Origin: Capsulimonas corticalis
GTDB taxonomy: Bacteria; Armatimonadota; Armatimonadia; Armatimonadales; Capsulimonadaceae
Direction: 5' to 3'
Assembly (NCBI RefSeq): GCF_003574315.2
Contig: NZ_AP025739.1
Coordinates: 186,001-250,000 of the forward strand
Length of the DNA stretch: 64,000 nucleotides
Positions within the stretch are counted from its first letter, which is position 1. Each line of letters opens with the position of its first letter. The notes below the pieces were generated by a model, which saw only the letters and a program-made list of their open reading frames with translations, was not told the DNA's origin and did no database searches. Shown piece after piece: positions 20,798-47,455 of the stretch. Both the position numbers and the translations under genes were made by a program.

Positions 20798-20944
20798 AAA
20801 CCCACCCCCGCGCTTCGCGCGACCCCTCCCTCGGGCGGGAAGGGTTATTTCAGAGCGTGTTATCGCAGGCGGCTCTCGTACGAGGCAATCTTACAAACCC
20901 TTCCCGCCCGAGGGAGGGGTCGCGCGAAGCGCGGGGGTGGGTTT
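20798..20944. repeat. Long palindromic element E1
   Basis: Two 49-bp arms (20798-20846 and 20896-20944) are perfect reverse complements around a 49-nt loop. Each arm is C-rich and contains an inner CGCGC-TTC-GCGCG hairpin. It lies between the convergent esterase and sensor-ATPase genes. The loop is homologous, in opposite orientation, to that of E3 at 38005-38157. Confidence 0.92.
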
Positions 20945-20965
20945 GCCACGGATCAAATTTGCCGT

Positions 20966-22480
20966 CTACGCCGCGAGCGCGGGCGGGTTGTCGTTGATCT
21001 GCTGGAGCAGCCAGGGCGGCAGCGGTTCTTCCTTGCCCTGCTCTAACACAAGCGTTGTTCCTGCGGGACCGGTGAGAAGGAAGAGATGGTCCACGGTGCT
21101 CAGCATCAGCCAGAAGCCGTGGCCGAGCGTGCCGGCGGTGGTGTAGCCGCGCTCCAGAGTAGCGCGCGGCAGGTGGTCGAGGGTGATGCCCGATCCGAAG
21201 TCGCGGACCCAGACCTGGATCCGGTCGTCCGTGCTGAGCCGGACTTCGCCGTGGCCGCCGCCGCCGTGAACGACGGCGTTCATGGAGGCTTCCGAGACCG
21301 CCGTGACCAGATCGTCGATCCGCTCGACAGGAAGGCTCGCCTCCAGAGCCGCTTGCCGCGCCAGATCACGCAGCGCCTTCAGGCCGCTGGTGCGGGACAA
21401 CTCCACGCTGCTGCTCACAATGCTGCGGGACGGCGGCAGCGCCGCCTCCGTGAGGCAAAGCTTAAGGCGTCCGTTGCTGACACACGTCAGCACCTCCTGA
21501 AGCGCTTGATTGGTGCGATCGAGATCCTCGGTCCGCTCCTGCACCCGGTGCTCCAGCTCTTCGCCCGCCTTCGACAGCATCTCCGCCCGCTCCGACGCTC
21601 GCTGCGCCAGATAAACGCTCCACCCCAGCAGGCACGAAACCAGAACTCCGCCCGCCAGCGCTTCGTAGGGAAGCCGTGACTGCGCCTGGACATATTGCCC
21701 AAGCCCCGGGTGCGCCTGCGAGTACTGGTGGATGATCGCCAGATTCCCGCTCTGATCCACCACCAGCGCCTGCCAGAGGCTCACCGACGCCGCCGAGCCG
21801 AAGATCGTTGCGACGAACGGCAGCCAGTGTGGACGGCTCACGCCGCGCCGAACCTCGGCCAGCCATGCCTCGCAGAGCGCGCCGGCCCCCAGCACGATGA
21901 AGCCAAGCGAGGTGTGGACGGCCATGCGGGTGAACTGGCCCCATCGGTACGCTTCCGTGACGCCGATAAAGTATCCCGTGAACGCCACCGCGCCGAGGGC
22001 CGTGACCGTCGCGCCGATGAGCGCCAGGAAGATCGGCGGATAAGCTCCGCGGCGCAAAGCCCACACGGTCTGCGCCACGCCAAACGCCGTGAAGCACGAC
22101 GCCGTCGCGATCGCCATGCGCCCGAAGTGCAGGATTCCGGAGCGCACATACGAGCGCATCAGCAATTCGTCGACGCCGAGATTGACCCCGAAGAGATATT
22201 CGGCGATGGTCAGCCCCCCAATCAGAGTCAGGAGAACGCCGCACGCCAGCGTTATGCGCCGCTTTTCAAAAACACCGGCGATCAGCGCGATTCCGCTGAG
22301 CAGAAAGCCCAGCGCCGTGTTGTACGCCATGGCGACAAACGACGGGTAGATCTTCAGCAGGGTCAGATTGTGGGTATGCCACCCAATCAGAACCGTCACG
22401 CCGAGCAAAGTCGCGAGCACGCCGCAAAAGAGAATGAGGGCAGGCAGCTGGTTTTGGCTGCGAGAGATCGGAATTACCAT
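20966..22480 (-). CDS. Multi-span membrane sensor with RsbW-like ATPase
   Basis: 504 residues. Eight or so membrane helices (about 10-305), a coiled-coil 'KAGEELEHRVQERTEDLDRT', then a C-terminal HATPase_c_2 domain of the anti-sigma-factor type with N box 'VSEASMNAVVHGGG' and 'VRDFGSGI'. No HisKA dimerisation domain is visible. The last 170 residues closely match the C-terminus of the protein at 40551-42281. Probably a membrane-bound switch kinase that binds a sigma or anti-anti-sigma partner, or phosphorylates it (inference). Confidence 0.82.
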   Translation of the reverse strand: MVIPISRSQNQLPALILFCGVLATLLGVTVLIGWHTHNLTLLKIYPSFVAMAYNTALGFLLSGIALIAGVFEKRRITLACGVLLTLIGGLTIAEYLFGVNLGVDELLMRSYVRSGILHFGRMAIATASCFTAFGVAQTVWALRRGAYPPIFLALIGATVTALGAVAFTGYFIGVTEAYRWGQFTRMAVHTSLGFIVLGAGALCEAWLAEVRRGVSRPHWLPFVATIFGSAASVSLWQALVVDQSGNLAIIHQYSQAHPGLGQYVQAQSRLPYEALAGGVLVSCLLGWSVYLAQRASERAEMLSKAGEELEHRVQERTEDLDRTNQALQEVLTCVSNGRLKLCLTEAALPPSRSIVSSSVELSRTSGLKALRDLARQAALEASLPVERIDDLVTAVSEASMNAVVHGGGGHGEVRLSTDDRIQVWVRDFGSGITLDHLPRATLERGYTTAGTLGHGFWLMLSTVDHLFLLTGPAGTTLVLEQGKEEPLPPWLLQQINDNPPALAA

Positions 22481-22638
22481 AATGATGACGACCAGAACGA
22501 ATCATGGTCAGCGCCGCATCGAACAAAAAAGGAAAAATAATGACGCTCAAGAACGGGACCAGGCGCTCCTCCACGACATTATTCCAGCATTCCCATGAGA
22601 TATCATGAGAAATTCCCAGCCCTGGCGATCCCAGTACG

Positions 22639-22667
22639 TTTACCAGGATCAAGCAGTCGGGTATGCT
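22639..22667 (+). promoter_or_regulatory. Promoter of acidic protein-permease operon
   Basis: TTTACC (22639-22644), a 17-nt spacer and TATGCT (22662-22667), 32 nt upstream of ATG 22700. Confidence 0.6.
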
Positions 22668-22699
22668 TTCATCAATCTCAATTCGTGAGGAGAATTTCC

Positions 22700-22981
22700 A
22701 TGGCTCCCGAACCCGCCAGCGATCCGCGCACGACCGGCAACAGCCGAACGACCGGCAGCGTCGCCGATATCGACAGCACGCAGGACTTCGAAGACTTGGA
22801 CGGCGACATCGATATGATGGATCGAGGCGACAATTCCGGCGACAGTGGCGGCGCCGCCAATGACGGCGGCGATCCCCAGGACGACGCGCCCGGCCAATCG
22901 AACAGTTCCCAGGACAGTGGTCCCAGCTCCTTCGGCGACGATCCTAACGACGCATTCGACTCGGAAGCGCCCACGGGATAA
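22700..22981 (+). CDS. Small acidic low-complexity protein
   Basis: 93 residues from ATG 22700 with GAGGAGA upstream. Almost wholly Asp, Gly, Ser, Asn and Pro, with no hydrophobic core, so intrinsically disordered and strongly acidic. No family recognised. It sits 6 nt upstream of the APC permease gene and shares its promoter, so it may be a partner or a cation-binding tail supplied in trans (inference). Confidence 0.6.
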   Translation: MAPEPASDPRTTGNSRTTGSVADIDSTQDFEDLDGDIDMMDRGDNSGDSGGAANDGGDPQDDAPGQSNSSQDSGPSSFGDDPNDAFDSEAPTG

Positions 22982-22987
22982 ACCCAA

Positions 22988-24868
22988 ATGACACAGCAGA
23001 CACCCCGCACGCAAGCCGCCCCGGCGCCTCCGGAAGGATCGATCGAAACGTCCTGGGACTTCCCCGGCTGGGGAACGGCGGAAACCATCACGGATCTGGG
23101 CTCCGAACCGGTCCAGGTGACGCATCTGGATTCGGGGGACGCGCATAAGCTGGGCATGTGGCGCTCGACGGCGATTTGCGGCAACGACATCACGTCGAGC
23201 TGTCTCTATGTCACCGCCATCGCCGCATTCTACGCCGGCCCTTACGCGCCCATCGCGCTCGCCCTTGTCGCCGCCGTGCTTTATCTCTACCGGAACGTTT
23301 ACGCCGAGGTCGGCACGGCGCTGCCGCTGAACGGCGGCGCATACAATGTCCTGCTCAACACCACCACCAAGGGACAGGCGTCCCTCGCCGCATGTCTGAC
23401 CATCCTTTCGTATATCGCGACGGCCGTTCTCAGCGCGGACGCGGCCATGCATTACGCGCATAACCTCTATGGCGGCCTGCCGATTATTCTGGCGACGATC
23501 GGCCTGCTCGGCCTCTTCGCGCTGCTCAATATCTTCGGCATCACGGAATCGGCCACCGTGGCTCTCGTGATTTTTCTGTTCCACATCCTGACTCTGATCG
23601 TGCTGGTCTTCGCCGTGCTGCCGGCCGCCTGGGCGCATCGGGAGATCCTCGCTCAGAACTGGAGCCACCCAATGCCCGGAGGCGCGATGAAGGCGATCTT
23701 CTTCGGTTTCTCGGCGGCGATGCTCGGGATCAGCGGCTTTGAAAGCTCGGCAAACTTCATTGAGGAGCAGAAGCCGGGCGTCTTCCCCAAGACGCTGCGC
23801 AACATGTGGGGTATCGTCGCCGTTTTCAATCCCATTATCAGCGTCCTCGCGCTGACCTTGCTGCCGCTGGCCGCGATCACGGCGCGTCCGGAGGACCTGC
23901 TGGCGCACATGGGGCTGGTGGGATCGGGCGTCTGGCTGCAAAAGTGGGTGAGCATCGACGCCGTGCTGGTCCTCTCGGGCGCGGTGCTCACGAGCTACGT
24001 GGGCGTAACGGGTTTGGTGCGGCGCATGAGTCTGGACCGCTGCCTCCCGCAGATCCTGCTGCGCGAGAACCATTGGCGGCACACCAACCACTGGATCATT
24101 CTGGGGTTCTTCGCCCTCTGCGCCTCGATCCTGGCCGTGTCGCGCGGCGATCTGCTGATGCTGGGCGGAGTCTACACCATCGCCTTCCTGAGCGTCATGA
24201 GCCTCTTTGCGGTCGGCAATATCCTGCTCAAGCTCAAGCGAGGACGTCTGCCGCGCGAGATCCGCGCTTCCTGGTTCGCCGTGCTGCTGGCGCTGGCCTC
24301 GACGTGCACGGCGCTCCTGGGCAATGTCCTGATCAAGCCGGCCTATGTGCGCGTCTTCCTGTTCTACTTCCTCTCGGCGGCGGCAGTCGTGGGCTTGATG
24401 TTCATCCGCGTGCAGTTGCTGCGCTTGATCCTGGCGGCGTCGGAGTCGTTTCTGGAGCGTCGCGGGGAGAGCAACAACAAGTTCAGCCACTGGATCATGG
24501 CGCAAATCCAGGAGATCAATGGGCGCGCGGTGATCTTTTTCGCCGAGGACGACACCCTTCCCATGCTCAACCACGCCGCCATTTACGTGCTGGAAAACGA
24601 GCAGAATAAGCGGCTGCGCGTGGTCCACACATATGTCCACGAAAGCGATATTCCGCAGGACCTCGCCAAAAACATCGCGCTCATCGACCATATCTACCCG
24701 GAGCTTCGCATCGACTTACTGCTCGTCCAGGGCGAGTTCGGCCCGCAATTGATCGAGCGGCTCGCGCGACGCCTGGGAGTGCCGAAGAACTATATGTTCA
24801 TCGGCACCCCCAGCAATCGGTTTCCGCATAGCCTCGCGTCGCTCGGCGGCGTCCGTCTCATCATGTAA
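22988..24868 (+). CDS. APC-superfamily amino-acid/polyamine permease
   Basis: 626 residues. A soluble N-terminus of about 60 residues is followed by 'GMWRSTAICGNDITSSCLYV', which matches the first helix of APC transporters, and about 12 membrane helices to about residue 490. The C-terminal 130 residues are soluble ('AVIFFAEDDTLPMLNHAAIY', 'RLRVVHTYVHESD') and look like a nucleotide-binding or regulatory domain, longer than in ordinary permeases. Transports an unknown amine or amino acid. Cotranscribed with the acidic protein. Confidence 0.87.
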   Translation: MTQQTPRTQAAPAPPEGSIETSWDFPGWGTAETITDLGSEPVQVTHLDSGDAHKLGMWRSTAICGNDITSSCLYVTAIAAFYAGPYAPIALALVAAVLYLYRNVYAEVGTALPLNGGAYNVLLNTTTKGQASLAACLTILSYIATAVLSADAAMHYAHNLYGGLPIILATIGLLGLFALLNIFGITESATVALVIFLFHILTLIVLVFAVLPAAWAHREILAQNWSHPMPGGAMKAIFFGFSAAMLGISGFESSANFIEEQKPGVFPKTLRNMWGIVAVFNPIISVLALTLLPLAAITARPEDLLAHMGLVGSGVWLQKWVSIDAVLVLSGAVLTSYVGVTGLVRRMSLDRCLPQILLRENHWRHTNHWIILGFFALCASILAVSRGDLLMLGGVYTIAFLSVMSLFAVGNILLKLKRGRLPREIRASWFAVLLALASTCTALLGNVLIKPAYVRVFLFYFLSAAAVVGLMFIRVQLLRLILAASESFLERRGESNNKFSHWIMAQIQEINGRAVIFFAEDDTLPMLNHAAIYVLENEQNKRLRVVHTYVHESDIPQDLAKNIALIDHIYPELRIDLLLVQGEFGPQLIERLARRLGVPKNYMFIGTPSNRFPHSLASLGGVRLIM

Positions 24869-24894
24869 GCGCCGCGAAGCATACGCTCCTGGTG

Positions 24895-24919
24895 TATAAT
24901 CTCCTTGATAATAAGGAGA
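24895..24919 (+). promoter_or_regulatory. -10 box and SD-sequestering hairpin
   Basis: TATAAT (24895-24900) is directly followed by CTCCTT-GATAAT-AAGGAG, a perfect stem (24900-24919 counting the closing T-A pair) whose 3' arm is the ribosome site of the gene at 24926. The structure would lie at or just before the predicted transcript 5' end. Confidence 0.55.
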
Positions 24920-24925
24920 GCCCCA

Positions 24926-26176
24926 ATGGACTCGATCAAGGTGAGCCGGATTGTTTTGTTTCTGATTGTGATCGCGCTGGCGATTGGGGGCTACCGCTGG
25001 TGGAGCCAGAGCCACTCCCCGTCCGTCGCGCTGAGCGCTCCGGCCGGAGCCCCGCCGGCTCCGCAAAGCGGCGGCGTGCTCGGCAAGATCAAGAGTCTAT
25101 TCCAGCATTCCCCGCAAACCAGCGGCGCGGCCAGCTCGCCGGGCGCGGGCGCTCCGGGCGATATCACGGTGCTCACGACCGCGACCAAAGCGCAGTGGCT
25201 CGACGATGAGATCGCGGCCTTCAATAGCGCCAACGCCGGCAAATATCACGCCACGCGCCTGCCGCTGCTGGAGTCGCGCGACGCGATGCAGGTGATGCTC
25301 GCCGGCAAGTCGCAGCCGACGATCTGGAGCCCGAGCAGCCCGGTCTGGATCGCGCGATTCAGCGAAGTCTGGGCGCAGCGCAACGGCTCGCGCGTGCGCA
25401 TCGCGGATATGGATGATCCCCAGAACTACCGCGTGCTCCTGAAATCCCCGCTCGTCGTGCTCACCACCCACGCCAAGGCGCCGTTTTTGAAATCCGTCTT
25501 CGCGGGATCCGCGCCGTGGTCGACGGTGCGCGAGCTCAGCGCGGGAACGCGCAAGGCGCCCTGGGGCAAGTTCCGCTTCGCCCACGCCGATCCGCTCGAC
25601 GCCAGCAGCGGCATGCTGACCATGTCCCTGATCCTGGGAGAGTACGCCCAGCAGCACGGGCAGGAGGGCGACATGGAGCAGGCGGCGCAGAGCGCGGCCT
25701 TTACCCAGTATTTGATCGGCGTCGAACGCGGCTTCCTGTACGATCCCAACACGGTCGGCTCCAGCGCTCTGGAGAAGTCGTTTGAAGCAAATCCGTCCAC
25801 GCGCGACTTTATCACCGCCTACGAAAGCAAGGCGCTGGAGGCGACGGAGAACGATTCGAATTTGACGATGGTCTACCCAAGGCCCACGGCGGTCGCCGAG
25901 CAGGCCGCCGTCGTCCTGAACGCGCCCTGGGTCTCCGACGCGCAGCGCGAAGGCGGACAGGCGCTGCTTCGCTTCCTGGCCAGCGACGAATCGCTAAAAG
26001 ACGGCATGAAGTACCACTTCCGCCCGGCGCACTCGGGCGGAATGGCGCTGCAGGAAGATTCCGCGACCGGCTTCCAGCAGTCCTATTCGGCGATCGAGCT
26101 GCCGCCCTACGGGGCGCTGAACGACGCGGCCAACCAGTGGCGCGTCAACGTCGCCCATCGCGGCGCGCAGCTATGA
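24926..26176 (+). CDS. Membrane-anchored solute-binding-like protein
   Basis: 416 residues from ATG 24926, preceded by AAGGAG. One N-terminal membrane anchor (about 5-25), a Pro/Ala/Ser linker, then a periplasmic-binding-protein-like fold (about 75-400) of the SBP_bac_11 type: 'DITVLTTATKAQWLDDEIAA', 'TIWSPSSPVW', 'VVLTTHAKAPFL', 'MVYPRPTAV'. In other bacteria such domains are often fused to a von Willebrand A domain; none is present here. The next gene overlaps its stop as ATGA. Confidence 0.78.
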   Translation: MDSIKVSRIVLFLIVIALAIGGYRWWSQSHSPSVALSAPAGAPPAPQSGGVLGKIKSLFQHSPQTSGAASSPGAGAPGDITVLTTATKAQWLDDEIAAFNSANAGKYHATRLPLLESRDAMQVMLAGKSQPTIWSPSSPVWIARFSEVWAQRNGSRVRIADMDDPQNYRVLLKSPLVVLTTHAKAPFLKSVFAGSAPWSTVRELSAGTRKAPWGKFRFAHADPLDASSGMLTMSLILGEYAQQHGQEGDMEQAAQSAAFTQYLIGVERGFLYDPNTVGSSALEKSFEANPSTRDFITAYESKALEATENDSNLTMVYPRPTAVAEQAAVVLNAPWVSDAQREGGQALLRFLASDESLKDGMKYHFRPAHSGGMALQEDSATGFQQSYSAIELPPYGALNDAANQWRVNVAHRGAQL

Positions 26177-27045
26177 ACCGTAAGCCGCCGATCAGCGAAG
26201 CGATCAAAGAAAACGGCAACATCGTCGGCATGGGCGCGTCCGTGATCCTCTCCGCCGTGCTGCTCAATCCGATCCCGCTGCTGGCAGGCGTCGTCGCCGA
26301 GGCCGCATATCTGCTGTTTGTGCCCGAATCGCGCTGGTACACGGACCGCCTGGCCCAGCGCGCCGCCGCCGAAGCGCTGCGCCAGCGCCGCCAGCGGAAC
26401 ATGCAGATCCTGCTGCAGCTGCCGCCCGAAACCCAGGAGCGCTTCGCGCGCCTGGAGGCGATCCGCCGCCAGATCGAAGGCGTGACACAGCAAGACACGC
26501 AGATGTTCGGCCAGATGATGCGCAAGCTCGACTATCTGCTGGACAAATTCCTGCAATTCGCCCTCAAGGAGCTGGAGTTCCGCGCCTATCTCCAGTCGCT
26601 CCTGAGCGAATGCCGCCTCAGCCCTCCGCCCCTCCCCAACGTCCGCCTGACCAGCGGCCGCGAGCGACCGGCGTCCAAAGACCTGCTCTTCCCCAGCAGC
26701 GCGGCTCCCGGCGTCGTCGCGGATATCCAGCGGTTTTACGACGGCGAGATCGCGCAATTGCAGACCGCCATGTCCGCCGAGAAGGACGAAGGCACGCGCT
26801 CCGTGCTCGCCCGCCGCCTCGATATCCTCCAGCGCCGCCGCGACCACGTTGGCAAAATCGGCGCGATGCTCAAAAACCTCGACCAGCAGCTTCAGCTGCT
26901 CCAGGACACCTTCGGCCTGATCAACGACGAAGTCCGCGCCCGCTCGCCGGAACAAGTGACCGGAGAGATCGACGAAGTCGTGCTTCAAACCGATGTGATG
27001 ACACAGACGCTGGAAGAATTGGTCTCGCTGGGGCAAACAGGGTAA
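26173..27045 (+). CDS. Coiled-coil protein coupled to solute-binding-like gene
   Basis: 290 residues starting inside the previous stop (ATGA), so translation is coupled. A short hydrophobic hairpin (about 17-45, 'ASVILSAVLLNPIPLLAGVV') is followed by long charged helices rich in Arg, Gln and Leu (about 55-125 and 180-285) that should form coiled coils. Family not recognised. The coupling suggests a membrane-associated partner of the solute-binding-like protein. Confidence 0.72.
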   Translation: MNRKPPISEAIKENGNIVGMGASVILSAVLLNPIPLLAGVVAEAAYLLFVPESRWYTDRLAQRAAAEALRQRRQRNMQILLQLPPETQERFARLEAIRRQIEGVTQQDTQMFGQMMRKLDYLLDKFLQFALKELEFRAYLQSLLSECRLSPPPLPNVRLTSGRERPASKDLLFPSSAAPGVVADIQRFYDGEIAQLQTAMSAEKDEGTRSVLARRLDILQRRRDHVGKIGAMLKNLDQQLQLLQDTFGLINDEVRARSPEQVTGEIDEVVLQTDVMTQTLEELVSLGQTG

Positions 27046-27059
27046 CTCATACAGAATTT

Positions 27060-27095
27060 CACTTATTACAGATATTACACTTATTAAGGTATAAT
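27060..27095 (+). promoter_or_regulatory. Promoter with direct-repeat operator of TA module
   Basis: CACTTATTA occurs at 27060-27068 and 27078-27086, separated by the related CAGATATTA, giving three 9-bp units in tandem. TATAAT follows at 27090-27095. The repeats cover the -35 region, as expected for antitoxin autorepression. Confidence 0.6.
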
Positions 27096-27115
27096 TTCCG
27101 CAAGAGGAGAAATTT

Positions 27116-27568
27116 ATGTCTTCAAACGCCGAAACGATTGCGCCAACACAACACGATGTAATGATGGCCGCCAAAGCCTCACGCCAATTGTCTCATTTCT
27201 CAAACCTGCATAAAAGCCTCCAGATACAAATCCAATCGGAAGATAATCAGGAGTCGGTCGCCTTATCGCCATTGATCGTCCAGCTGTTGTCGCGTATTTT
27301 GAATGAAACAGCGAGTGGACACACGGTGTCCATCGAGCCCGTAGAATCCGATATGACCACGTCCGAGGCGGCGGATTATCTCAACGTATCCCGGCCCTAT
27401 TTGACCTCTCTCTTGCAGCAGGGCAAACTTCCGTTTCATCTTGTCGGAAGCCACCGGCGAGTTCGTCGGGAAGATATTGCCGATTATAAGAAACGCCAAA
27501 AGGAAGCATCTTACGCCGCAATGCGGGAATTACAGGCTCAGGCGGAAGAACTGGGCATGGAAAATTAG
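27116..27568 (+). CDS. Excisionase-type HTH antitoxin
   Basis: 150 residues with AGAGGAGAAA upstream. The C-terminal half holds a MerR/excisionase-family helix-turn-helix: 'MTTSEAADYLNVSRPYLTSL' then 'LPFHLVGSHRRVRREDIADY'. The N-terminal 75 residues are helical and probably dimerise or bind the toxin. The PIN-domain gene starts 3 nt after its stop. Together they form a type II toxin-antitoxin pair, where the antitoxin is the DNA-binding repressor. Confidence 0.88.
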   Translation: MSSNAETIAPTQHDVMMAAKASRQLSHFSNLHKSLQIQIQSEDNQESVALSPLIVQLLSRILNETASGHTVSIEPVESDMTTSEAADYLNVSRPYLTSLLQQGKLPFHLVGSHRRVRREDIADYKKRQKEASYAAMRELQAQAEELGMEN

Positions 27569-27571
27569 TCC

Positions 27572-28141
27572 GTGTCAAAACAAAAGGTCATTCTCGACGC
27601 CTGCGTTCTGTATCCTGCGGGGCTCCGCAGTGTCTTGATGTATTTGGCGCTCGGCGAGCTTTACCAAGCCTATTGGACTGACGCAATTCACGATGAATGG
27701 ATCCGCAACGTACTCGAAGACCGCAGCGATATCTCCCCAGAGCAGCTCGCGCGTACTCGCCGACTGATGGACGAGGCGATTCCCGGATCGTTGGTAGTGG
27801 GATACGAAAGCTTGATCGAGGACTTGGATCTGCCGGACCGAGATGACCGACATGTGTTAGCGGCGACGATACACATTGAAGCCCAAACCATCGTCACCTT
27901 CAATAGGCGCGATTTCCCCACAGAGAAGTTAGCTCCATATCACATACGAACGCTCACTCCCGACGCGTTCGTGCTGGACCTGGTGCAAACCTTCCCGCTC
28001 GAAGCTTTAGAGGCGCTCAAAATCGATCGGTTATCAAAGCAGCGCCCTCCAAAATCACCAGAAGAGTATTTAGCCGCGCTTACGGCGCAGAGTCTCACTC
28101 AAAGCACTGCGGCTCTCCGTCAGTATATTGAGTATCTGTAA
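27572..28141 (+). CDS. PIN-domain toxin
   Basis: 189 residues from GTG 27572. PIN nuclease residues are visible: 'VILDACVLYP' (first Asp), 'DEWIRN' (Glu), 'LDLPDRDDRHVLAATIHIEA' (acidic pair) and 'IVTFNRRDFP' (Asn/Asp). PIN toxins cleave RNA using Mg2+ held by these acids. The last 50 residues form a charged helical extension beyond the usual PIN length (about 135). Paired with the HTH antitoxin. The region has somewhat lower GC than its neighbours, consistent with transfer. Confidence 0.9.
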   Translation: MSKQKVILDACVLYPAGLRSVLMYLALGELYQAYWTDAIHDEWIRNVLEDRSDISPEQLARTRRLMDEAIPGSLVVGYESLIEDLDLPDRDDRHVLAATIHIEAQTIVTFNRRDFPTEKLAPYHIRTLTPDAFVLDLVQTFPLEALEALKIDRLSKQRPPKSPEEYLAALTAQSLTQSTAALRQYIEYL

Positions 28142-28153
28142 GATACACCGGTG

Positions 28154-29095
28154 CTAAACCTGCGGGCGCGGTTCGTCGGGCGTGTCTTCCCAGAACCGTT
28201 CCGAGAGATATCGGTCGGCGCCGTCGCAGAGGATGGTGACGAAGACGCTGCCCTGGGGGGCGCGTTTGGCGAGGGTCAGGGTGGTGTGGACGTTGCCGCC
28301 GGCGGAGATGCCGACGAGGAGGCCTTCGCAGCGGGCAAGGCGCTTGACCATCGCGTAGGCGTCCTCGGTTCGGCACTCGACGTTCTGGTCGGCGACGCGG
28401 GGGTCGTAGATCGGCGGGACGATGGCGGTTTCCAGATGCTTGAGGCCCTCCAGGCCGTTGAACGGCGAGTCGGGCTGCATGGAGATCAGGGTGACGTTCG
28501 GGTTTGTGTCGCGCAGGAAGCGGCCGACGCCCATCATGGTTCCCGTGGTGCCCAGACCGGCGACGAAGTGGGTGACGCGGCCTTCGGTCTGCGCCCAGAT
28601 CTCCGGACCGGTGGATTCGTAGTGCGCCCGCCAGTTGGCGTCATTGCCGTACTGGTCGGGATAAAAGTAGAGGTCGGGATCTTCCGCGTAGAGCTGCTTG
28701 ACCATCCGAATGGCGCCGTCGGACTGCTCGGCGGGGTTGGTGAGCACCAGATCTGCTCCGTAAGCGCGCAGGATCTTCTTACGCTCGGGCGAGGCGTTCA
28801 AAGGCAGGCATAGCTTCACGGCGTAACCGCGCGCCGCGCCGATCATCGCGTAGGCGATCCCCGTATTGCCGGACGTGGCGTCGAGAATGATCTTTCCGAG
28901 GCGCAGCGCGCCGGAGCGCTCGCCCTCCCGGATCATGTTGAGCGCCGGACGATCTTTGACCGAGCCGCCCGGATTGAAGAATTCGGCCTTGGCGTAGATC
29001 TCAACTCCTGGGGCTTCTTCTTCAAGCGATGTCAGACGGACAAGCGGCGTATTGCCGATGAGCTGGTCGAGACTGCTGGCGACGGCGACAGGCAT
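28154..29095 (-). CDS. cysK: Cysteine synthase family PLP enzyme
   Basis: 313 residues. 'IGNTPLVRL', PLP-lysine motif 'NPGGSVKDRPA' (Lys about 46), 'TSGNTGIAYA', phosphate-binding 'GLGTTGTMMG' and C-terminal 'GISAGGNV' are all present. It makes cysteine from O-acetylserine (or O-phosphoserine) and sulfide; CysM-type specificity cannot be excluded. AGGAAAA precedes the ATG and a TATACT -10 stands at 29124-29129. It converges with the PIN gene across 12 nt. Confidence 0.92.
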   Translation of the reverse strand: MPVAVASSLDQLIGNTPLVRLTSLEEEAPGVEIYAKAEFFNPGGSVKDRPALNMIREGERSGALRLGKIILDATSGNTGIAYAMIGAARGYAVKLCLPLNASPERKKILRAYGADLVLTNPAEQSDGAIRMVKQLYAEDPDLYFYPDQYGNDANWRAHYESTGPEIWAQTEGRVTHFVAGLGTTGTMMGVGRFLRDTNPNVTLISMQPDSPFNGLEGLKHLETAIVPPIYDPRVADQNVECRTEDAYAMVKRLARCEGLLVGISAGGNVHTTLTLAKRAPQGSVFVTILCDGADRYLSERFWEDTPDEPRPQV

Positions 29096-29942: not shown

Positions 29943-30004
29943 TTCGGGGAAACCACCGTATTTCACACAGGTTCGTTCGACACTTCAAGGAGCACACCCT
30001 ACCC

Positions 30005-30580
30005 ATGCGCAAGAGTTCGATTTTCGTGCTGGCCGCCGCCGCTCTCGCCGCCGGCGCCCTTTCGGCACGCCCCGCCTCCGCCCAAGTCTTCGAGCCGCCG
30101 GCCGCCAGCGTTGAGCATAACCAACCGATATCGCTGCGCGTGGGCGCATACTTCCCCACGAACCGAAAGATTCGCAAGGATGTCGGCCAGACATTCCCCA
30201 GCGTAGGCGTGGATTACCATCTGCATCAGGACAGCGCGACGTCGGATACGTTCGTCTCCCTGGACTACATCGACCGGGGCGCCAGCAACTTTCACATGCG
30301 TGTGGTTCCGCTGACCTACGGCATCCGCTATGTTCAGGATCTCTCCGCCAAGAACTCGGTGTACTACGGCTTCGGCGCTGGCGCTTACTACACCAACATC
30401 GATGTCAGCAACGACACAGGCGGGCATGAGACGAACAACGACCTGCTCGTCGGCGGCTTCCTGAATCTGGGCGTCAACATCAACCAGGCGTCGTTCCTCG
30501 ACCTGCGCTACCACTTCACGTCGTCCTCGGGCAGCGTGAACCCCGGCGGCCCGCAGGTGTCCGTCGGCTTCCGGTTCTAA
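30005..30580 (+). CDS. Outer-membrane beta-barrel protein (OmpW/porin-like size)
   Basis: 191 residues: signal peptide ending PASA (about 1-26) then a compact 8-strand-type beta pattern with aromatic belts ('YGFGAGAYYTN', 'NLGVNI') and a C-terminal Phe in 'VSVGFRF', the outer-membrane insertion signal. It resembles the barrel part of the protein at 14343-15044, without that protein's low-complexity linker. Transcribed from a perfect consensus promoter, so likely abundant. Function unknown. Confidence 0.82.
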   Translation: MRKSSIFVLAAAALAAGALSARPASAQVFEPPAASVEHNQPISLRVGAYFPTNRKIRKDVGQTFPSVGVDYHLHQDSATSDTFVSLDYIDRGASNFHMRVVPLTYGIRYVQDLSAKNSVYYGFGAGAYYTNIDVSNDTGGHETNNDLLVGGFLNLGVNINQASFLDLRYHFTSSSGSVNPGGPQVSVGFRF

Positions 30581-30584
30581 CCCC

Positions 30585-31358
30585 ATGGAGCTGTTCGACA
30601 CGCACTGCCACCTCAACCATCCGGACTACGATGACGATCGGGAAGAGGTGGCGGCGCGTGCGCGCAGCGCCGGCGTCTCCGCAATGCTGACGATCGGCTA
30701 TGATATGCCGAGCAGCCGCCGGGCGGCCGCGCTCACAGCGATGGACGGGGTGTACGCCGCAATCGGCGTCCACCCCGAATCCGCGAAAGAGTGGACCCCG
30801 GAATCGCAATCCGAGCTGCGCGGGTTCTGGGACGCGTCTCAAAACCGCGTGGCCGCCTACGGCGAGATCGGCCTCGATTACCACTGGGACACGCAGCCCC
30901 GCGACCACCAGCAGCAAGTCTTCGCCGAACAGATCGCCTTCGCCGCCTCCCTTGATCCTCGTCTCCCCTTGATCATCCACTGCCGCGACGCACAGGACGA
31001 TGTCCTGCGCATCCTCCGCGAGTCGGCCACGCCGGCGCCGGTCGTCATGCACTGCTTTACGGGGGATACGGACACCGCACGCGCCTGCCTGGACGCCGGC
31101 TGCTGGCTGGGGATCGGCGGCGTCGCCACCTACAAAAAATCGGACGCCCTGCGCGTCGCCATCGCTTATGCGCCGCTGGACCGACTGCTCCTCGAAACCG
31201 ACTGCCCCTACCTCGCCCCGCAGCGCTGGCGCGGCAAGCGCAACGAACCCTCCTACCTCACCGCCGTCGCCGCCATCGTCGCCGACGCGCGCGGAATTTC
31301 TCCCGAAGATGTCGCCCAGGCGACCACGCACAACGCGCGGTTTGTATTTCGGGTGTAG
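30585..31358 (+). CDS. tatD: TatD-family metal-dependent DNase
   Basis: 257 residues, normal for the family. Metal ligands are present: 'FDTHCHLNH', 'GEIGLDYHW', 'IIHCRDA', 'VMHCFTG' and 'LETDCPYLAP'. A TIM-barrel hydrolase acting as 3'-5' DNase or RNase in DNA repair or quality control. It begins 4 nt after the barrel gene and probably shares its strong promoter. Confidence 0.95.
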   Translation: MELFDTHCHLNHPDYDDDREEVAARARSAGVSAMLTIGYDMPSSRRAAALTAMDGVYAAIGVHPESAKEWTPESQSELRGFWDASQNRVAAYGEIGLDYHWDTQPRDHQQQVFAEQIAFAASLDPRLPLIIHCRDAQDDVLRILRESATPAPVVMHCFTGDTDTARACLDAGCWLGIGGVATYKKSDALRVAIAYAPLDRLLLETDCPYLAPQRWRGKRNEPSYLTAVAAIVADARGISPEDVAQATTHNARFVFRV

Positions 31359-31371
31359 GAAAGATGGAGCC

Positions 31372-31506
31372 CTCACCCCCCGGCCCCCTCTCCCAAAATT
31401 GGGAGAGGGGGAGTCAGAGGGAGTTTTTTATTTGGATCTTTGATCCAAAATCTTAACCCTCTCCCAGAATTGGGAGAGGGTGGCGCGAAGCGCCGGGTGA
31501 GGGCCG
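31372..31506. repeat. Palindromic element E2
   Basis: Two imperfect arms, each with a CCCTCTCCC-AA-TT-GGGAGAGGG hairpin and flanked by CCCTCACCC / GGGTGAGGG. The right arm also carries GGCGCTTCGCGCC. A T6 run follows the left hairpin (31424-31429), so it can terminate tatD. It lies between the convergent tatD and HTTM genes. Confidence 0.85.
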
Positions 31507-31508
31507 CG

Positions 31509-32801
31509 TTAGCTCTGCGCCTTCGCCTTATATCTCGGCGCGACCGGCAAACGCGAGCGGTTCTTCGTTACCCATTGATACGCCGACTGGCCGAGCTGCG
31601 GGACGCCGGGGATGTAGAGGAACACCGTGAGGAGCCAGAATGCGGGCGTGCGGCGGATGATCTCACGGAAGGCGTAGAAGCCGGGGTACGCGCGGCCTTT
31701 AGGGCCGACGGCGATTGCCGCGTGCTCGGCGTCCTCCGCGCTGACTTCCGGGGCGAGGGCGAGCTGCGCGGGGTCACGGGAGTCGAGGAACGTCACCAGG
31801 CCGAAGACGTCGAAGAAGCGCACGACGAGCAGGGCGGACCGGCAGAAGTCGCATTCGCCGTCGTAGACGAGCTTGAGCGGCGTCAGGCGGATCGTACGCA
31901 CGAGCCAGTTCTGGAAGTTGCTCAGATCTTCCTGTGTCAGAAACGGGATATAAGAAGCGATCATCAGGAACGAGAACAACGGGATATTGAGCGAGTATTC
32001 GATCCCCAGATGCAGCAGCACTCCCAGGCCCAGGACATAGAGACGCAGACGCGGAACCCAGACGAACGTGGCCAGGGCCAGCTCAATGCCGAGCGCCGCG
32101 TAGGTCATCAGGTTGATCATGATCAGATTGTCGCTGATGACGTGCGGCGTTGGGAACCGGGCGAACGCGGGCAGATGCATCGGGTAATAGATCGCGACGC
32201 CTTCCTGCCAGGATTTCCCCTGCAGCTTTGCGATCGCCGTACAGGCATAGACCAGAGAAAGCTGGATCTGCATCAGGCGCTGCGCCCAGGGAACGATGCG
32301 CGGCGCCACGCGCCCTTCACGCCCCTTCAGCACGCGCCACAGTCGGTCGAGGGAGCAGGAGGCGTCAGCCTGCGCCAGCATCAAATAGATCGTCATGACC
32401 AGCATCACACAGTCGCCGCCGGTCGTGTTGACGATGGGATTGCGGTTGTGGATGGCATTCAGGCCAAGCGCGACGAGGAAGAGCGACGGGCGCGTCCATA
32501 GCCCGACGGTCATGCAGATCGCCGCCAGGATGAAGATCACAAAAAACGCCGTCAGCCAGGCGTCGCTCGCGTGATGGAGCAGATGGATCACGCGCGGCCC
32601 GGGCGTATAGTTCGCCTGATAGTTGTCGGCGAAGTTGGTCGGCAGGACGCCGCGCTCCGAAAACCAGACGACGCGCTCCGGAAACAAAATCCAGGCGTTC
32701 GCCAGAACCAGCAGGCCCATGACGATGCGAAACAGACCCTGCGGACCGCTGTGAATAGGCTTAAACCAGAAACGGCGCCAATCGCTGCGTATTGCGTTCA
32801 C
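31509..32801 (-). CDS. HTTM (gamma-carboxylase-like) protein fused to DCC thiol domain
   Basis: 430 residues. Residues about 15-300 contain seven or eight membrane helices typical of HTTM proteins, the bacterial relatives of vitamin K-dependent gamma-carboxylase. From about 310 a DCC/DUF393 thioredoxin-like domain begins with the signature 'LVYDGECDFCRSALL' (CxxC) and 'FLDSRDP'. It may carry out a membrane redox or lipid modification linked to a dithiol pair (inference). Its ATG overlaps the stop of the upstream 198-residue gene by 4 nt. Confidence 0.88.
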   Translation of the reverse strand: MNAIRSDWRRFWFKPIHSGPQGLFRIVMGLLVLANAWILFPERVVWFSERGVLPTNFADNYQANYTPGPRVIHLLHHASDAWLTAFFVIFILAAICMTVGLWTRPSLFLVALGLNAIHNRNPIVNTTGGDCVMLVMTIYLMLAQADASCSLDRLWRVLKGREGRVAPRIVPWAQRLMQIQLSLVYACTAIAKLQGKSWQEGVAIYYPMHLPAFARFPTPHVISDNLIMINLMTYAALGIELALATFVWVPRLRLYVLGLGVLLHLGIEYSLNIPLFSFLMIASYIPFLTQEDLSNFQNWLVRTIRLTPLKLVYDGECDFCRSALLVVRFFDVFGLVTFLDSRDPAQLALAPEVSAEDAEHAAIAVGPKGRAYPGFYAFREIIRRTPAFWLLTVFLYIPGVPQLGQSAYQWVTKNRSRLPVAPRYKAKAQS

Positions 32802-33394
32802 CGGAGGTCCTCCGGCTGGATGTCGGTCGAGTAAAATTTATAAACGCCCATCGGCGGGGGCGGCGCGCCCGGCGCGGTCGTCTGGATATCCGGCAGCACG
32901 CGGAAGTGACGGATCAAATCCACCGACACCGGCCGCGAGCCGGGACGGTCGTTGTTGATGCGCGCGGCGTAGGTCGCCATGGAGTGCCACAGGTAACTGA
33001 AGCCCTCTTGATGCGCCACCTCGATGTACTTACGGTAACGCTCGCTGCGATAGCGGTCGTCGTAACGCAGCTGATCCATGCGCGGATAGTCCCACACCCG
33101 CTGGCTTCCATCGGCGTAGTGCACAACCGTCTCGACATAGACATCCAGCTTATACGGCTCCGGCGCGAACATCAGCCAGCCCTGGTTAAGGCCCGTGAGC
33201 GTCATGTACGGGCGGACGATCGACATACCCTGACGCGCGACCTCCGAAGTCCCCGCCAGCGCCCACACCACCAGCGCAAAGAGATGCCAGACCACGAACA
33301 CCGTGATCGCCACTCGCCCAAACGCCGCCCACTGCGCCCGCTCCTGCCGCCGCAGACGCACCTTATCCCGCTCTGATAGATCTTTTGTATTCAT
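32798..33394 (-). CDS. Membrane-anchored partner of HTTM protein
   Basis: 198 residues with a charged N-terminus, one membrane helix (about 26-48) and a soluble domain on the outside with conserved-looking aromatics ('LNQGWLMFAPEPYKLDVYV', 'YADGSQRVWDYPRM'). Its stop overlaps the HTTM start by 4 nt, so the two are translated together. Such partners of HTTM proteins are known only as hypothetical. It may form a complex with the HTTM channel-like domain. Confidence 0.78.
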   Translation of the reverse strand: MNTKDLSERDKVRLRRQERAQWAAFGRVAITVFVVWHLFALVVWALAGTSEVARQGMSIVRPYMTLTGLNQGWLMFAPEPYKLDVYVETVVHYADGSQRVWDYPRMDQLRYDDRYRSERYRKYIEVAHQEGFSYLWHSMATYAARINNDRPGSRPVSVDLIRHFRVLPDIQTTAPGAPPPPMGVYKFYSTDIQPEDLR

Positions 33395-33501
33395 TCCCGG
33401 TCCTTAATTCACTCCCTTAATTCCTCTGTCAGCACACCGATTCCTGCATCGGCTAAGCGAACGGACAATGAGTTCTGATTAACTTTGTATTATAAAGTAA
33501 T

Positions 33502-33530
33502 TTGCAAATCATCGAACTTTATGGTACTAT
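33502..33530 (+). promoter_or_regulatory. Promoter of DUF4173 gene
   Basis: TTGCAA (33502-33507), 17-nt spacer, TACTAT (33525-33530). It lies within the longest reading frame and so fixes the start at ATG 33574. Confidence 0.65.
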
Positions 33531-33573
33531 CGACTCGCGAGACAGGGAGCACGCCTGTCTCCGGGAGGTTACG

Positions 33574-35130
33574 ATGATGGCGCAATGGATTTTGGGAGCG
33601 GCGCTGCTTCTTGGGATTTTGGGAGACGCGCTGTTTCGCGACTCGGACGGCTCCGGGCTGAACTGGCTTTTGTGGACCAGCTCCGCCGTGGGCGCGGCGG
33701 CGGTCCTGGCGCGCCGGCAATCGATCGCGGCGGCCATGAGCGGGCGCGTTCTGATCGCGCTGGCGCTCTTATTCTCGGGCCTGATGGCGCTGCGTGATTC
33801 CTTCGCGCTGCACGGGCTATGCCTGCTGGCGATCATCGTGGCGGCGGCGGGCGCGGTCTCGGTTCAGGAAGGATGGCGCGCGATGCGCTCGGGGTTCGTG
33901 GAGTACGCCAAAAGCGTGGCGCTGCTGGCCGGCGCGGCCTTCACCGGCCCGACCCGTTTTATGAACGCCGCCAGAGGCGCGGCGGGGCGGGTCAGTGACG
34001 GCTTCATCCCCCGGGCGCCGCAGACTGAAGATCAAATGTCCCAGGCGCCCGAAGGCGCGGACCGCTGGGTCGCCGCCCCGGGCGTGGCGCGGGGCCTGCT
34101 GATCGTGGCGCCCTTATTTGTCGTTTTCCTGGCGCTGCTGATGTCCGCCGATCCCGCGTACCGGCATGTGGTGACAAGCTTGTTTGAGTGGGATCTCCAA
34201 ACGCTGATCGCGCACCTGCTGACCATCGCCGTGGTCGCCTGGTGCGCCGCCGGCGTCCTCCACCGCGCCCTGCGACACGCCGCCGAAGCGCAGTCGCCTG
34301 CGGCGGCCGCTCCGCTGCTGACGCTGGGCGTCCCGGAAGTCATGACCATCCTCACGGCGATCGACCTGTTGTTTCTCAGCTTTGTCGGCGTCCAGCTTCG
34401 CTACGCCTTCGGCGGCGAGGCGCTGATCCGGGCGACCACCGGTCTGACATACGCCGAGTATGCGCGCGGCGGCTTCTTCGAGCTGCTGGCGGTGGCGGCG
34501 ATCGTCCTCCCCGTCCTGCTGTTCCTGCACTGGGCGCTGGACCGCCGGGAGCTGCGCGCGGAGCGCCCATTCCAATGGCTCGCCGGCGTCCAGGTCTCGC
34601 TCCTCGGCGTGATGCTCGCGAGCGCCTATCACCGGATGCGCCTCTACGAAGCGGTATACGGCATGACGGAGCTGCGCCTTTATGTCATGGCCGCCATCGT
34701 CTGGCTCGCCGTGGTCTTCGCCTGGTTCTGCCTGACCGTCCTGCGCGGACGCCGCCGCCTCTTCGCCGGCGGCGCGCTCGCCGCCGCCGCTCTGGGGATC
34801 GGCGTCCTCGAAGGCGTCAACCCAGACGCCCTGATCGCCAAAATCAACCTCGCCCAGGCCCACAGCGCCCACCGGTTCGACGGCTGCTACGCCGCCTCCC
34901 TGAGCGCCGACGCCGTTCCCCCATTGGTGAACGCGCTCCCCACCCTCGCGCCCGCCGACGCCGCCATCGTCGCCCACCAGCTGCTCTCCCGCTGGACCCC
35001 GCCCCCGCAGATCGACTGGCGCGGATGGAGCGTCGGACGCGCGCAGGCGTGGAACGCCGTGGAAAGTCGAATGGTGGAGCTGAGAACGCTGGCGGCCGGC
35101 GCGCCGAAGGATGCGTGTCCGGGAGAGTGA
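33574..35130 (+). CDS. DUF4173 membrane protein
   Basis: 518 residues from ATG 33574 with GGGAGG upstream. About ten membrane helices, with the family-specific 'YAEYARGGFFELL' and 'VYGMTELRLYVM' of DUF4173 (DUF4153-related), then a soluble C-terminal 90 residues. The function of the family is not known; members are often near sensor kinases or sporulation-like genes in other phyla. Stands alone behind its own promoter. Confidence 0.85.
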   Translation: MMAQWILGAALLLGILGDALFRDSDGSGLNWLLWTSSAVGAAAVLARRQSIAAAMSGRVLIALALLFSGLMALRDSFALHGLCLLAIIVAAAGAVSVQEGWRAMRSGFVEYAKSVALLAGAAFTGPTRFMNAARGAAGRVSDGFIPRAPQTEDQMSQAPEGADRWVAAPGVARGLLIVAPLFVVFLALLMSADPAYRHVVTSLFEWDLQTLIAHLLTIAVVAWCAAGVLHRALRHAAEAQSPAAAAPLLTLGVPEVMTILTAIDLLFLSFVGVQLRYAFGGEALIRATTGLTYAEYARGGFFELLAVAAIVLPVLLFLHWALDRRELRAERPFQWLAGVQVSLLGVMLASAYHRMRLYEAVYGMTELRLYVMAAIVWLAVVFAWFCLTVLRGRRRLFAGGALAAAALGIGVLEGVNPDALIAKINLAQAHSAHRFDGCYAASLSADAVPPLVNALPTLAPADAAIVAHQLLSRWTPPPQIDWRGWSVGRAQAWNAVESRMVELRTLAAGAPKDACPGE

Positions 35131-35177
35131 TCCCCATCCCCGACCAGTGCAGCCCACTCACCGTAGGGAACGGATGT

Positions 35178-35693
35178 TCACCAAATTTTCTTCAGAAAGC
35201 TGACGATGGTGTCGGCGACCGAGTGCGCGACGCCGCCGAGGATGAGGCCCACGACGATCCAGAGGGTCCAGGTGGGATGCGTGAATGTCCAGGAGAGCGT
35301 GTGGGACCAGATGTCGGTCATCACGGCGTTTCGGTCGACGGGGATGCCTTTGCGGACGAGCAGCCAGAGCACGCAGCGCACGGTCGCCCAGAGCATGAAG
35401 AGGAAGTAGGCGACACGGATCAGCGGGCCGACCGCAATTCCGTGCGAGACCCAGGATCGGTGCGGCACCAGGGTCTTGTAGGGCCACCAGAGGAAGCGCA
35501 GGACGCCCCAGCGCTTGTAGGCGACGCTCTGGGTGTCGAGATCGTCGGACAGCCAGAGGCCGGAGAAGATATACGAGCCGAGAGTCAGAATGAGCGGCGT
35601 GACATCGGCCGACGGGCAGTAGAGATACCAGACCGGTACGGCGGCGGCGGCCGTAATCAGCGTGATCTTGTCGTGAACTTTCCCACTGGGCAA
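35178..35693 (-). CDS. DUF2227-type membrane metal-binding protein
   Basis: 171 residues if the TTG at 35693 is the start, giving M-PSGKVHDKIT, the usual start of DUF2227 proteins. Motifs with potential metal ligands: 'KVHDKIT', 'SDDLDT', 'VPHRSWVSHG', 'GGVAHSVADTI'. Four membrane helices. Family members are putative membrane-bound metal-dependent hydrolases. A longer frame to TTG 35783 exists but adds only a basic, low-quality extension. Confidence 0.78.
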   Translation of the reverse strand: MPSGKVHDKITLITAAAAVPVWYLYCPSADVTPLILTLGSYIFSGLWLSDDLDTQSVAYKRWGVLRFLWWPYKTLVPHRSWVSHGIAVGPLIRVAYFLFMLWATVRCVLWLLVRKGIPVDRNAVMTDIWSHTLSWTFTHPTWTLWIVVGLILGGVAHSVADTIVSFLKKIW

Positions 35694-35794
35694 CGGAATG
35701 GACTTTCTTGCGTTTCGACGAAGCCTAAACCACGGGCGAATACGCGACAATCCGTGGACGAATCTCGGGGCGGCTAACGCCAATATTGGGACGG

Positions 35795-37870
35795 CTAGCG
35801 GCCGAACTTGCGGTCCAGATCGCTGTTCGCCAATTCCACGATGATCGGGCGGCCATGCGGGCAGGTGTACGGGTTATCAGACTTCAGAAGATCGGAGACG
35901 AGCGCGTTCATCTCCTCGAACGTCAATGGATCGCCCGCCTTGACCGCCATCTTGCAGCTGGCCGTGATCAAGACTTCCTCGGCGGGCAGCATCAGGCGGC
36001 GCGAGGTGGTCTTCTCCACCAATTCATCCACGATCTCGCGCAGCACTTCCTCGGGGCCGCCCTGCGCCTTGATATGCTTTTGGGCGACCGACGCCGGGAC
36101 CGAGCGCACGAGATAAGATTCGCCGCCGAACGGCTCCAGCTCAAAGCCCGCGCGGCGCAGATCCTCCAGCCGGTTCTCCACCACCATCGCCTCGCGCTTG
36201 CTCAGTTCCAGCGTAAAGGGGATCATCAGTTGCTGGACCGGCACTCCCGCCCCGGCCCCCTCGGCGCCGGCGATCAGCTTCTCATAGAGAACCCGCTCGT
36301 GGGCGATGTGCTGATCGATCAAAACCAACGCGTGGTCGGTCTGCGCCACAATATACATATTGCGCGACTGCGCCAGCACGCGCAGCGAGCCGAGGTTGTG
36401 GTTTCGGTAATCGCCGCCGGTTGCGCTCTCGATCGGCGCGGTGCTTTCAAGCGGCGCATCGCCGCCCTCACGCGCGAACTCCGTCTGCTCCAGCATCTCC
36501 GGCGAATCGAGCATCAGCGCGCCTTCTTGCACGCGGTCGGACGGCGGCGCGGCGTGCACGGCGTACTGCGCGCCATTACTTCCAGTCCCTGCATATCCGT
36601 TCGCCGGCGCGCCATATCCGGCGGCGTCCTCGAAGGGATCGGGCTCTCCGGCGGCCTTGCCGAGCAGCGCCTCGTGGAACGGCGACTGCGTCACATCCTG
36701 ACGGCGGACATTGACCGGCGGACGCGACGGCACCTGAAACAGCGGCGCCTGACCGTACCCAACCCCCGAAGACTTGCGCGCGCCTTCGCCGGACGCCGGT
36801 GAAGCTTCCTCGCCGCCGCCCGGCGTCATCTTCTGGATCAGCGTTGGCACGAGGCCGCCGGCGAGCAGCGCTTCCTTGACGGCGTGGTAGACAGCCGAAT
36901 AGATCTCGCCCTCGCGGGTGAAGCGCACTTCGGTCTTGGTCGGCGAGACATTGATGTCCACCTGGCCGGGATCGACATCGATCATGATCACCGCCGGCGG
37001 ATATTTGACGCCGTGGATCGTCTGGACGCTCTTGTACCCCTCGTCGAGCGCGCGCGTCACGGCCTTATTGCGCACGAAGCGGCGATTAACGAAGCTATGC
37101 TGCCACGAACGGGCGTTCTTCAGCGCGGCGGGGCTCGCGACAAATCCCCAGACCCGCAGCCCGCCCGCCTCATAATCCATCGGCACAAGATGCCGCGCCG
37201 TGTCGCGGCCGAAGACCTGCACGCAGGCGTCCATCATCGAGCCGCTTCCGCCGGAGGAGAACAGCTCTTGATTGTTCTGCTGCAATCGGAACGCGACATG
37301 CGGATACGCCAGCGCGAACCGCTGCATCAGCTCGACGATATGGTTCGTCTCGGTCTGCGACGTCTTCAAAAACTTCAAACGGGCCGGCACGTTGTAAAAC
37401 AGGTTCTCGACCGTGATGCTGGTGCCCGTCCGCGCCCCGACCTCAGTCACGCCTTCAAAGGTCCCGCCATTGCAGCGCAGCTCGATCCCCGGCGCGTCGG
37501 GCTCCTCGGGATCGTCGAGCCGCGTCACGATCGTCATCTGCGAAACCGACGCGATGCTCGGCAGCGCCTCGCCCCGGAACCCCATCGTCGTGATCTTAAA
37601 CAGATCGTCCGCCAACCGGATCTTCGACGTCGCGTGCCGCTGCAGCGACAGCACCGCATCCTCCTGCGACATCCCCGATCCGTCATCGGTCACCCGAATC
37701 AGATACTTGCCGCCCTCTTCCAGCTCCACCAGAACCCGCTTCGCCCCGGCGTCCAGCGCATTCTCCACCAACTCCTTCACCGCCGCCGCCGGCCGCTCGA
37801 CCACCTCCCCCGCCGCGATCTGATTGGCGGTGGTGTCGTCGAGGATTTGAATTTTCGGAGTGCTGGACAT
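35795..37870 (-). CDS. mutL: DNA mismatch repair protein MutL
   Basis: 691 residues. The GHKL ATPase head has 'NQIAAGEVVERPAAAVKELV', 'TDDGSGM' and 'TMGFRGEALPSI', then a long Pro/Gly/Ala-rich linker (about 335-480). The C-terminal dimerisation domain has the endonuclease motif 'DQHIAHERVLYEK' and 'CPHGRPI'. So this is a nicking MutL, as in bacteria without MutH. It works with MutS, which is not in the window. The linker is long for the family. Confidence 0.97.
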   Translation of the reverse strand: MSSTPKIQILDDTTANQIAAGEVVERPAAAVKELVENALDAGAKRVLVELEEGGKYLIRVTDDGSGMSQEDAVLSLQRHATSKIRLADDLFKITTMGFRGEALPSIASVSQMTIVTRLDDPEEPDAPGIELRCNGGTFEGVTEVGARTGTSITVENLFYNVPARLKFLKTSQTETNHIVELMQRFALAYPHVAFRLQQNNQELFSSGGSGSMMDACVQVFGRDTARHLVPMDYEAGGLRVWGFVASPAALKNARSWQHSFVNRRFVRNKAVTRALDEGYKSVQTIHGVKYPPAVIMIDVDPGQVDINVSPTKTEVRFTREGEIYSAVYHAVKEALLAGGLVPTLIQKMTPGGGEEASPASGEGARKSSGVGYGQAPLFQVPSRPPVNVRRQDVTQSPFHEALLGKAAGEPDPFEDAAGYGAPANGYAGTGSNGAQYAVHAAPPSDRVQEGALMLDSPEMLEQTEFAREGGDAPLESTAPIESATGGDYRNHNLGSLRVLAQSRNMYIVAQTDHALVLIDQHIAHERVLYEKLIAGAEGAGAGVPVQQLMIPFTLELSKREAMVVENRLEDLRRAGFELEPFGGESYLVRSVPASVAQKHIKAQGGPEEVLREIVDELVEKTTSRRLMLPAEEVLITASCKMAVKAGDPLTFEEMNALVSDLLKSDNPYTCPHGRPIIVELANSDLDRKFGR

Positions 37871-38187
37871 AAACGTTCTCTTCTCAAGTTAGATTGACGC
37901 GGGTTGCGTCAACAGGTCACTCGCGCGGCGGGGGCGGATCCGGAAAGAGGATTTTGATCCAAAGGTCTACCCTATCCTATCAATACAGCGTACATCTTCA
38001 GGCCGGCAAACCCACCCCGGCCCTTCGGGCCACCCCTCCCGTCGCCGGGAAGGGTTTGTAAGATTGCCTCTGACGAAAGCCGTCCGCGATAACAAGCTCT
38101 AAAATAACCCTTCCCGTCCGAGGGAGGGGGCAGCCAAAGGCCGGGGGTGGGTTTGCCAAGGCGCCCCGCAACGCCAGAGTATACGTC
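37871..38187. other. Intergenic region upstream of mutL
   Basis: 317 nt without a gene. It holds a perfect inverted repeat TTGACGC-GGGTT-GCGTCAA (37894-37912), 24 bp upstream of mutL, and the palindromic element E3. I see no other coding or RNA signal. Confidence 0.7.
38005..38157. repeat. Long palindromic element E3
   Basis: GGCAAACCC ... GGGTTTGCC bound an imperfect palindrome with arms of about 50 nt. The 50-nt loop matches the reverse complement of the E1 loop at 43 of 50 positions, so E1 and E3 are copies of one element in opposite orientation. Unlike most copies it lies between codirectional genes (hisG, mutL). Confidence 0.9.
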
Positions 38188-47438: not shown

Positions 47439-47455
47439 CGGATGAGGGCCTGCCC

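Follow-up and report, generated by a model that had tools for sequence, protein, structure and literature searches.

The closest described relatives of the element reported here are of several kinds. The boxC/PIT/TM motif, in which a fixed order of three homopurine/homopyrimidine blocks provides for an intrastrand triplex, is abundant and conserved across bacteria (E. coli and more than 260 bacterial genomes); it is intergenic, shows no strand bias, sometimes occurs in inverted pairs and is tied to instability and centre deletions, and the main study of it reported no sign of a means of spreading (PMC4666352). REPINs are short non-autonomous units with two inverted hairpin-bearing ends and many extragenic copies, and they characteristically adjoin their own RAYT (PMC3116915). 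MITEs are short, gene-free and dispersed, with long terminal inverted repeats. Several insertion sequences target REPs (IS1397, ISRm22, ISPpu9 and others), among which ISRm22, of the IS4 family, sits within them (PMC1525189). Template switching homogenises the arms of inverted repeats and inverts their spacers (PMC8604942, PMC8794818). On balance, the element of Capsulimonas corticalis described below is probably a mobile palindrome that is non-autonomous and REPIN/MITE-like, has boxC-type arms and measures about 150 bp.

The window, a stretch of 64,000 nucleotides, contains two palindromes, E1 and E3, which a sequence-only reading had described as sharing a loop in opposite orientation. This description was borne out. 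E1 (20797-20945) has arms complementary at 50/50 positions around a 49-nt loop; its arms had correctly been called perfect, with each end placed one base short of the true 50-bp arms. E3 (38005-38157) has similar arms, as had been stated, although their pairing is imperfect (41/52). When the E3 loop was reverse-complemented, it agreed with the E1 loop at 42/49 positions, and alignment of E1 with inverted E3 gave 126 matching positions over the full 149 nt. Inverted repeats with arms of at least 24 nt inside 220 nt numbered three in the real window and none in 20 Markov-1 randomised windows. The elements and the other palindromes of the window are listed in Table 1.

Table 1. Coordinates of palindromic elements in the window and of insertion sequences found in E1-family arms
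Feature	Position	Strand	Description
E1 left arm	20797..20846	.	Perfect; ACCCACCCC block, hairpin hp1, CCCCTCCC block, spacer (hairpin hp2), GGGAAGGG block
E1 loop	20847..20895	+	Conserved, 49 nt, type 1; taken as + orientation
E1 right arm	20896..20945	.	
Family-B palindrome	31369..31506	.	Two inverted boxC/TM motifs (CCCTCTCCC-N-GGGAGAGGG-N-GGGTGAGGG)
E3 left arm	38005..38056	.	A 36-nt stretch pairs without mismatch with an arm of E4 (44330)
E3 loop	38057..38105	-	Type 1, inverted relative to E1 (42/49)
E3 right arm	38106..38157	.	Pairs with left arm at 41/52
E4	44330..44487	.	Third family-A member; perfect 52/52 arms around a two-way terminator hairpin (AAAAACCCCGTCGCC...GGCGACGGGGTTTTT) that replaces the type-1 loop
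Second family-B palindrome	47285..47440	.	49-nt arms, 94% complementary
Half-module	53980..54083	.	Degenerate, loop-less, kin to E1 arms, inside another GC-rich repeat
Tn5-type IS	L193:1957-3463; L198; L200; L170 (congener)		

We then determined how widely the element is dispersed. A pattern search with the loop, allowing three or fewer mismatches, gave 75 matches in the 7.65-Mb genome (39 plus, 36 minus), a count that is a lower bound on copy number, and the reversed control pattern gave none; the two copies first reported were thus a large undercount. Copy numbers here rest on pattern searches together with sampled blocks of the genome, and a loop profile recovered 19 copies, with a clear score gap below them, in 1.66 Mb sampled without bias (the window together with 80 blocks of 20 kb). 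The loop lay inside a palindrome in every copy examined, and the element alignment comprised 38 rows, 37 of them distinct. Copies L015 and L016, located 1.7 Mb apart in differing flanks, are identical across the element. Outside this genome, a whole-element search found diverged copies with a conserved loop core in one genome of the same genus (hereafter the congener) and no copies in 59 other relatives. The sole match in a loop-core pattern scan of 84,980 species genomes was Capsulimonas sp. RYN_270, a MAG that is presumably the congener itself, and the plasmids and phages searched contained no match to the element. Dispersal of at least 75 copies with a conserved loop, the identical pair and presence or absence between species sustain the earlier view of a defined element that is no simple terminator, and from them we infer mobility: a non-autonomous mobile element is favoured.

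A target-site duplication and a transposase with matching ends had both been proposed as checks, and neither was found for the element. No duplication was seen at E1 or E3, the orthologous sites compared yielded no clean empty site and no empty-versus-filled pair with a target duplication, and in the sampled genome no autonomous transposon carried matching terminal inverted repeats. The element is MITE-like in being short, gene-free, dispersed and bounded by long terminal inverted repeats; it departs from MITEs in having no transposase with matching ends in the sample, and may do so with respect to the target duplication.

Subsequently, we examined the anatomy of the arms of family A, to which E1 and E3 belong. 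Read inward, the arm consists of ACCCACCCC, hairpin hp1, CCCCTCCC, a short spacer and GGGAAGGG; its opposite strand reads CCCTTCCC-N-GGGAGGGG-N-GGGGTGGGT, and its blocks follow one another as in the boxC/PIT/TM motif (a C-rich block, a complementary purine block and a third purine-rich block). Judged by sequence, family-A arms are boxC/PIT-like and carry putative triplex-motif blocks. Across 38 elements the three blocks were conserved at 97-100%, hp1 and the spacers at 82-88% and the loop at 86%, and hp1 formed its own stem in 73/76 arms. Against an expected zero, the A-type block pattern was matched at six places in the window and the canonical one at two. Family B at 31369 fits the canonical pattern exactly, whereas family A is built of the variant blocks above with a hairpin in the second spacer. 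That spacer measures 14 nt, exceeding the short loops of 1-6 nt between blocks used as a search criterion in PMC4666352; the arm in the window closest to this range is a family-B arm (31370-31409), with spacers of about 6-7 nt. Family A further differs from the described motif in its chief arrangement, an inverted pair enclosing a conserved 49-nt loop, in nesting in other palindromes and in turning over between species. The two have in common an intergenic position, the lack of strand bias and a tie to instability: the earlier expectation that long perfect arms are unstable agrees with the centre-deleted copies that we found, and at L023 and L050, among the sites compared with the congener below, family B is centre-deleted or cut to a stub in this genome. 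Solo arm units were rare in the genome sample, and we rejected them as independent REPs. Here boxC/PIT motifs make up the arms of a well-defined unit that is dispersed and whose copies differ between congeners, so that the question of what moves them can be put to a concrete system. A bolder and rather improbable proposal is that mobile palindromes of a distinct class, which insert into hairpin tips and nest repeatedly, would be moved by some enzyme and have the triplex motif as the end that is recognised.

The arm spacers vary yet covary, with double changes in 17/50 pairs and a covariation of 0.160 compared with 0.057 after shuffling; spacers are conserved mainly as complementarity and the three triplex-motif blocks as sequence. 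Stem covariation, which had been put forward as a check, is thus strong, but it does not separate RNA from mobile DNA, because inverted repeats homogenised at the DNA level yield an identical signal. Such covariation, together with a loop conserved in two species, would also be expected of a structured sense-strand RNA, a riboregulator with a conserved loop, which was the other form envisaged in the sequence-only reading beside a MITE-like mobile unit. We consider this very unlikely: loop orientation relative to transcription was random (13 same, 16 opposite) and thus revealed no conserved sense strand, G-C to C-G swaps dominated the covariation, an Rfam search gave no match, and the loop by itself shows little structure. 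The excess of G.U over A.C mismatches was not significant (12:7, p=0.36), and we discarded this asymmetry as a sign of RNA selection. The mobile unit is accordingly the favoured half of that earlier alternative. These results also carry a warning: where a palindrome is abundant, covariation of its stem is, alone, no evidence of a functional RNA. Relative to replication, 47 of the 75 loop hits were co-directional and 28 opposite (p=0.037, counted by hand), a weak bias that is possibly a by-product of gene orientation.

The examined family-A copies all lie at gene 3' ends. With gene calls from a simple codon-usage finder written for this analysis, gene gaps holding the element were divergent in 0/42 cases (19% expected, p=2e-4), convergent in 13 (p=0.004) and tandem in 29; when all palindrome families were pooled, 0/48 were divergent and none lay inside genes. 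Selection that removes insertions from promoters and genes probably produces this distribution. Alternatively, the element could be an immobile structure of 3' ends, a bidirectional terminator or a protector of mRNA 3' ends, that is maintained by selection and whose copies are homogenised by gene conversion without transposition. The constant 3'-end position and the convergent enrichment accord with this reading, as do the very stable predicted fold of E1 (-132 kcal/mol) and the existence of one sub-lineage with a true terminator. In that sub-lineage, the 44330 element encloses a terminator within its arms, and related terminator loops were found in four copies, two of them 53/55 identical and 4/4 between convergent genes; this exchange of payload speaks for the mobile palindrome. 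However, type-1 elements such as E1 and E3 have no U-tract after the stem, termination requires no conserved 49-nt loop of random orientation, and PMC4666352 cites an earlier study in which boxC/PIT motifs did not act as terminators. On the mobile reading, the role of a settled element would not go beyond that of a passive roadblock or terminator working both ways, and copies of the sub-lineage whose loop is a real terminator would serve as mobile terminators.

Comparison with the congener bears on the same alternative. We compared about 20 orthologous sites, which were reached through element-containing queries and are not a random sample, and roughly half of them were empty or occupied by a plain hairpin or a palindrome of another family. 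The congener has a family C palindrome at the E3 site, a free terminator plus family B at the E4 site and another palindrome family at the 47285 family-B site. Family A here is replaced there by family B at L082:4692 and L042:3277 (the latter at a contig end) and by a B-like palindrome at L042:8881, and family E here by family B at L106. Window 53985, within the half-module at 53980..54083 that is missing from the congener's orthologous site, and L042:5974 are present here and absent there. The same family occupied three A sites, three B sites and one E site in both species, and at one further A site the congener copy carries a Tn5-type IS. These common sites (three or four A, three B) speak for an immobile structure, and the three congener elements that share a site with an element here would equally fit elements that are old and immobile and have been homogenised separately in the two genomes; the sites with a different occupant or none speak against it, and overall we judge an immobile 3'-end structure unlikely. 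As a separate observation, a further family of long palindromes (TTTCCCCCTTTTTCCCAGCAAG...) has a loop of 112-152 nt; examples are L083:17638, L076:9680 and L055:5809, and one member lies at the congener's E3 site.

Returning to a non-autonomous mobile palindrome, we found that elements nest in existing hairpins, since their arms often extend symmetrically into older modules. Symmetric extension past the conserved ends reached a score of at least 5 in 25/43 elements, compared with 13% of mismatched left/right pairs (permutation p=2e-4), and a score of at least 16 in 13/43 elements, compared with 1.3% of mismatched pairs. Divergence was greater in outer than in inner modules. At the shared site L117/L012, the two species have the outer module in common and a species-specific inner element, and at L042:5974 a loop-less element lies within a palindrome of family-C-like type. 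At L094 (L094:7731) there is a plain hairpin here with the stem CATCTCC/GGAGATG, and the congener's element at that site has the same letters as its outermost arm; L116/L094 is suggestive of insertion into a hairpin, on the strength of 7-9 matching bp per side.

These observations can be accommodated by a model in which the unit, a boxC-type arm, the 49-nt loop and an inverted boxC-type arm, would move as a folded hairpin, probably of single-stranded DNA. Copies would land preferentially in or beside existing hairpins at gene ends, and successive rounds of landing could nest like Russian dolls. Template switching during replication would copy arm onto arm, so that arms stay perfect and loops can flip. 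Template switching fits both the perfect, co-varying arms and the loop at L117/L012, which has opposite orientations in the two species, and is probably what keeps the arms perfect. Nested palindrome families, a terminator sub-lineage and an IS confined to arms together amount to a layered repeat community at gene ends.

Paired, inverted REP-like palindromes with a short spacer and many extragenic copies are REPIN traits that this element displays, and it probably shares with REPINs the insertion into or beside existing elements. We therefore considered whether it could be a strict REPIN that a Y1/RAYT transposase of the genome moves in trans. The architecture is in keeping with this (two inverted hairpin-bearing ends, about 150 bp, extragenic), and at least three other palindrome families here (CCCGGTTATGAAACCCGGG, GGCGAATGAATTCGCGCC, CCCCGCATTGAAATACGGGG) have a Y1 gene inside their arms (L032 and L033) or beside them (L031). 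In L032 the arms match at 65/66 on both sides of the Y1 gene, and in L033 at 60/64; L031, L032 and L033 appear to be autonomous REPIN units whose non-autonomous relatives occur among the sampled blocks. Each of these Y1 genes, however, is paired with a different arm sequence, and none of the five Y1 hits had an E1-family arm nearby, whereas REPINs characteristically adjoin a RAYT flanked by the same repeat. We thus rejected these Y1/RAYT genes, matched as they are to other palindrome families, as the cognate transposase, and a strict REPIN is a possible although not a likely identity. The element also differs from REPINs in its boxC-type arms, near-perfect across 50 bp. A fourth intact Y1-type gene was seen at L034, in whose flanks no inverted repeats were detected.

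Between E1-type arms, the genome sample held no gene except that of a Tn5-type IS, whose transposase (Dimer_Tnp_Tn5, DDE_Tnp_1) is present in three copies here and in one truncated copy in the congener. All four copies found sit in the second hairpin (hp2) of an E1-family arm, a location that could mark the IS as an autonomous partner mobilising the element. This is extremely unlikely, as the IS is bounded by 17-bp ends of its own (CTAAGCTTGTATCACAT) that bear no relation to those of the element, and its three complete insertions are flanked by 9-bp duplications of the arm hairpin (CCGCAACGG, CCGCTGCGG, CGCCGACGG); the elements are therefore its target, and we rejected the IS as an autonomous copy or partner. 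Like REP-targeting insertion sequences, the Tn5-type IS was met only within these palindromes, and it differs from them in that it targets hp2, a hairpin of a boxC-type element.

Elsewhere in the window, positions 1528-4573 contain a repeated stretch with 71% identity over 300 nt, in which the ORF DNA reads like a thioredoxin-type FW.TWCGPC motif; these ORFs look like tandem paralogues.
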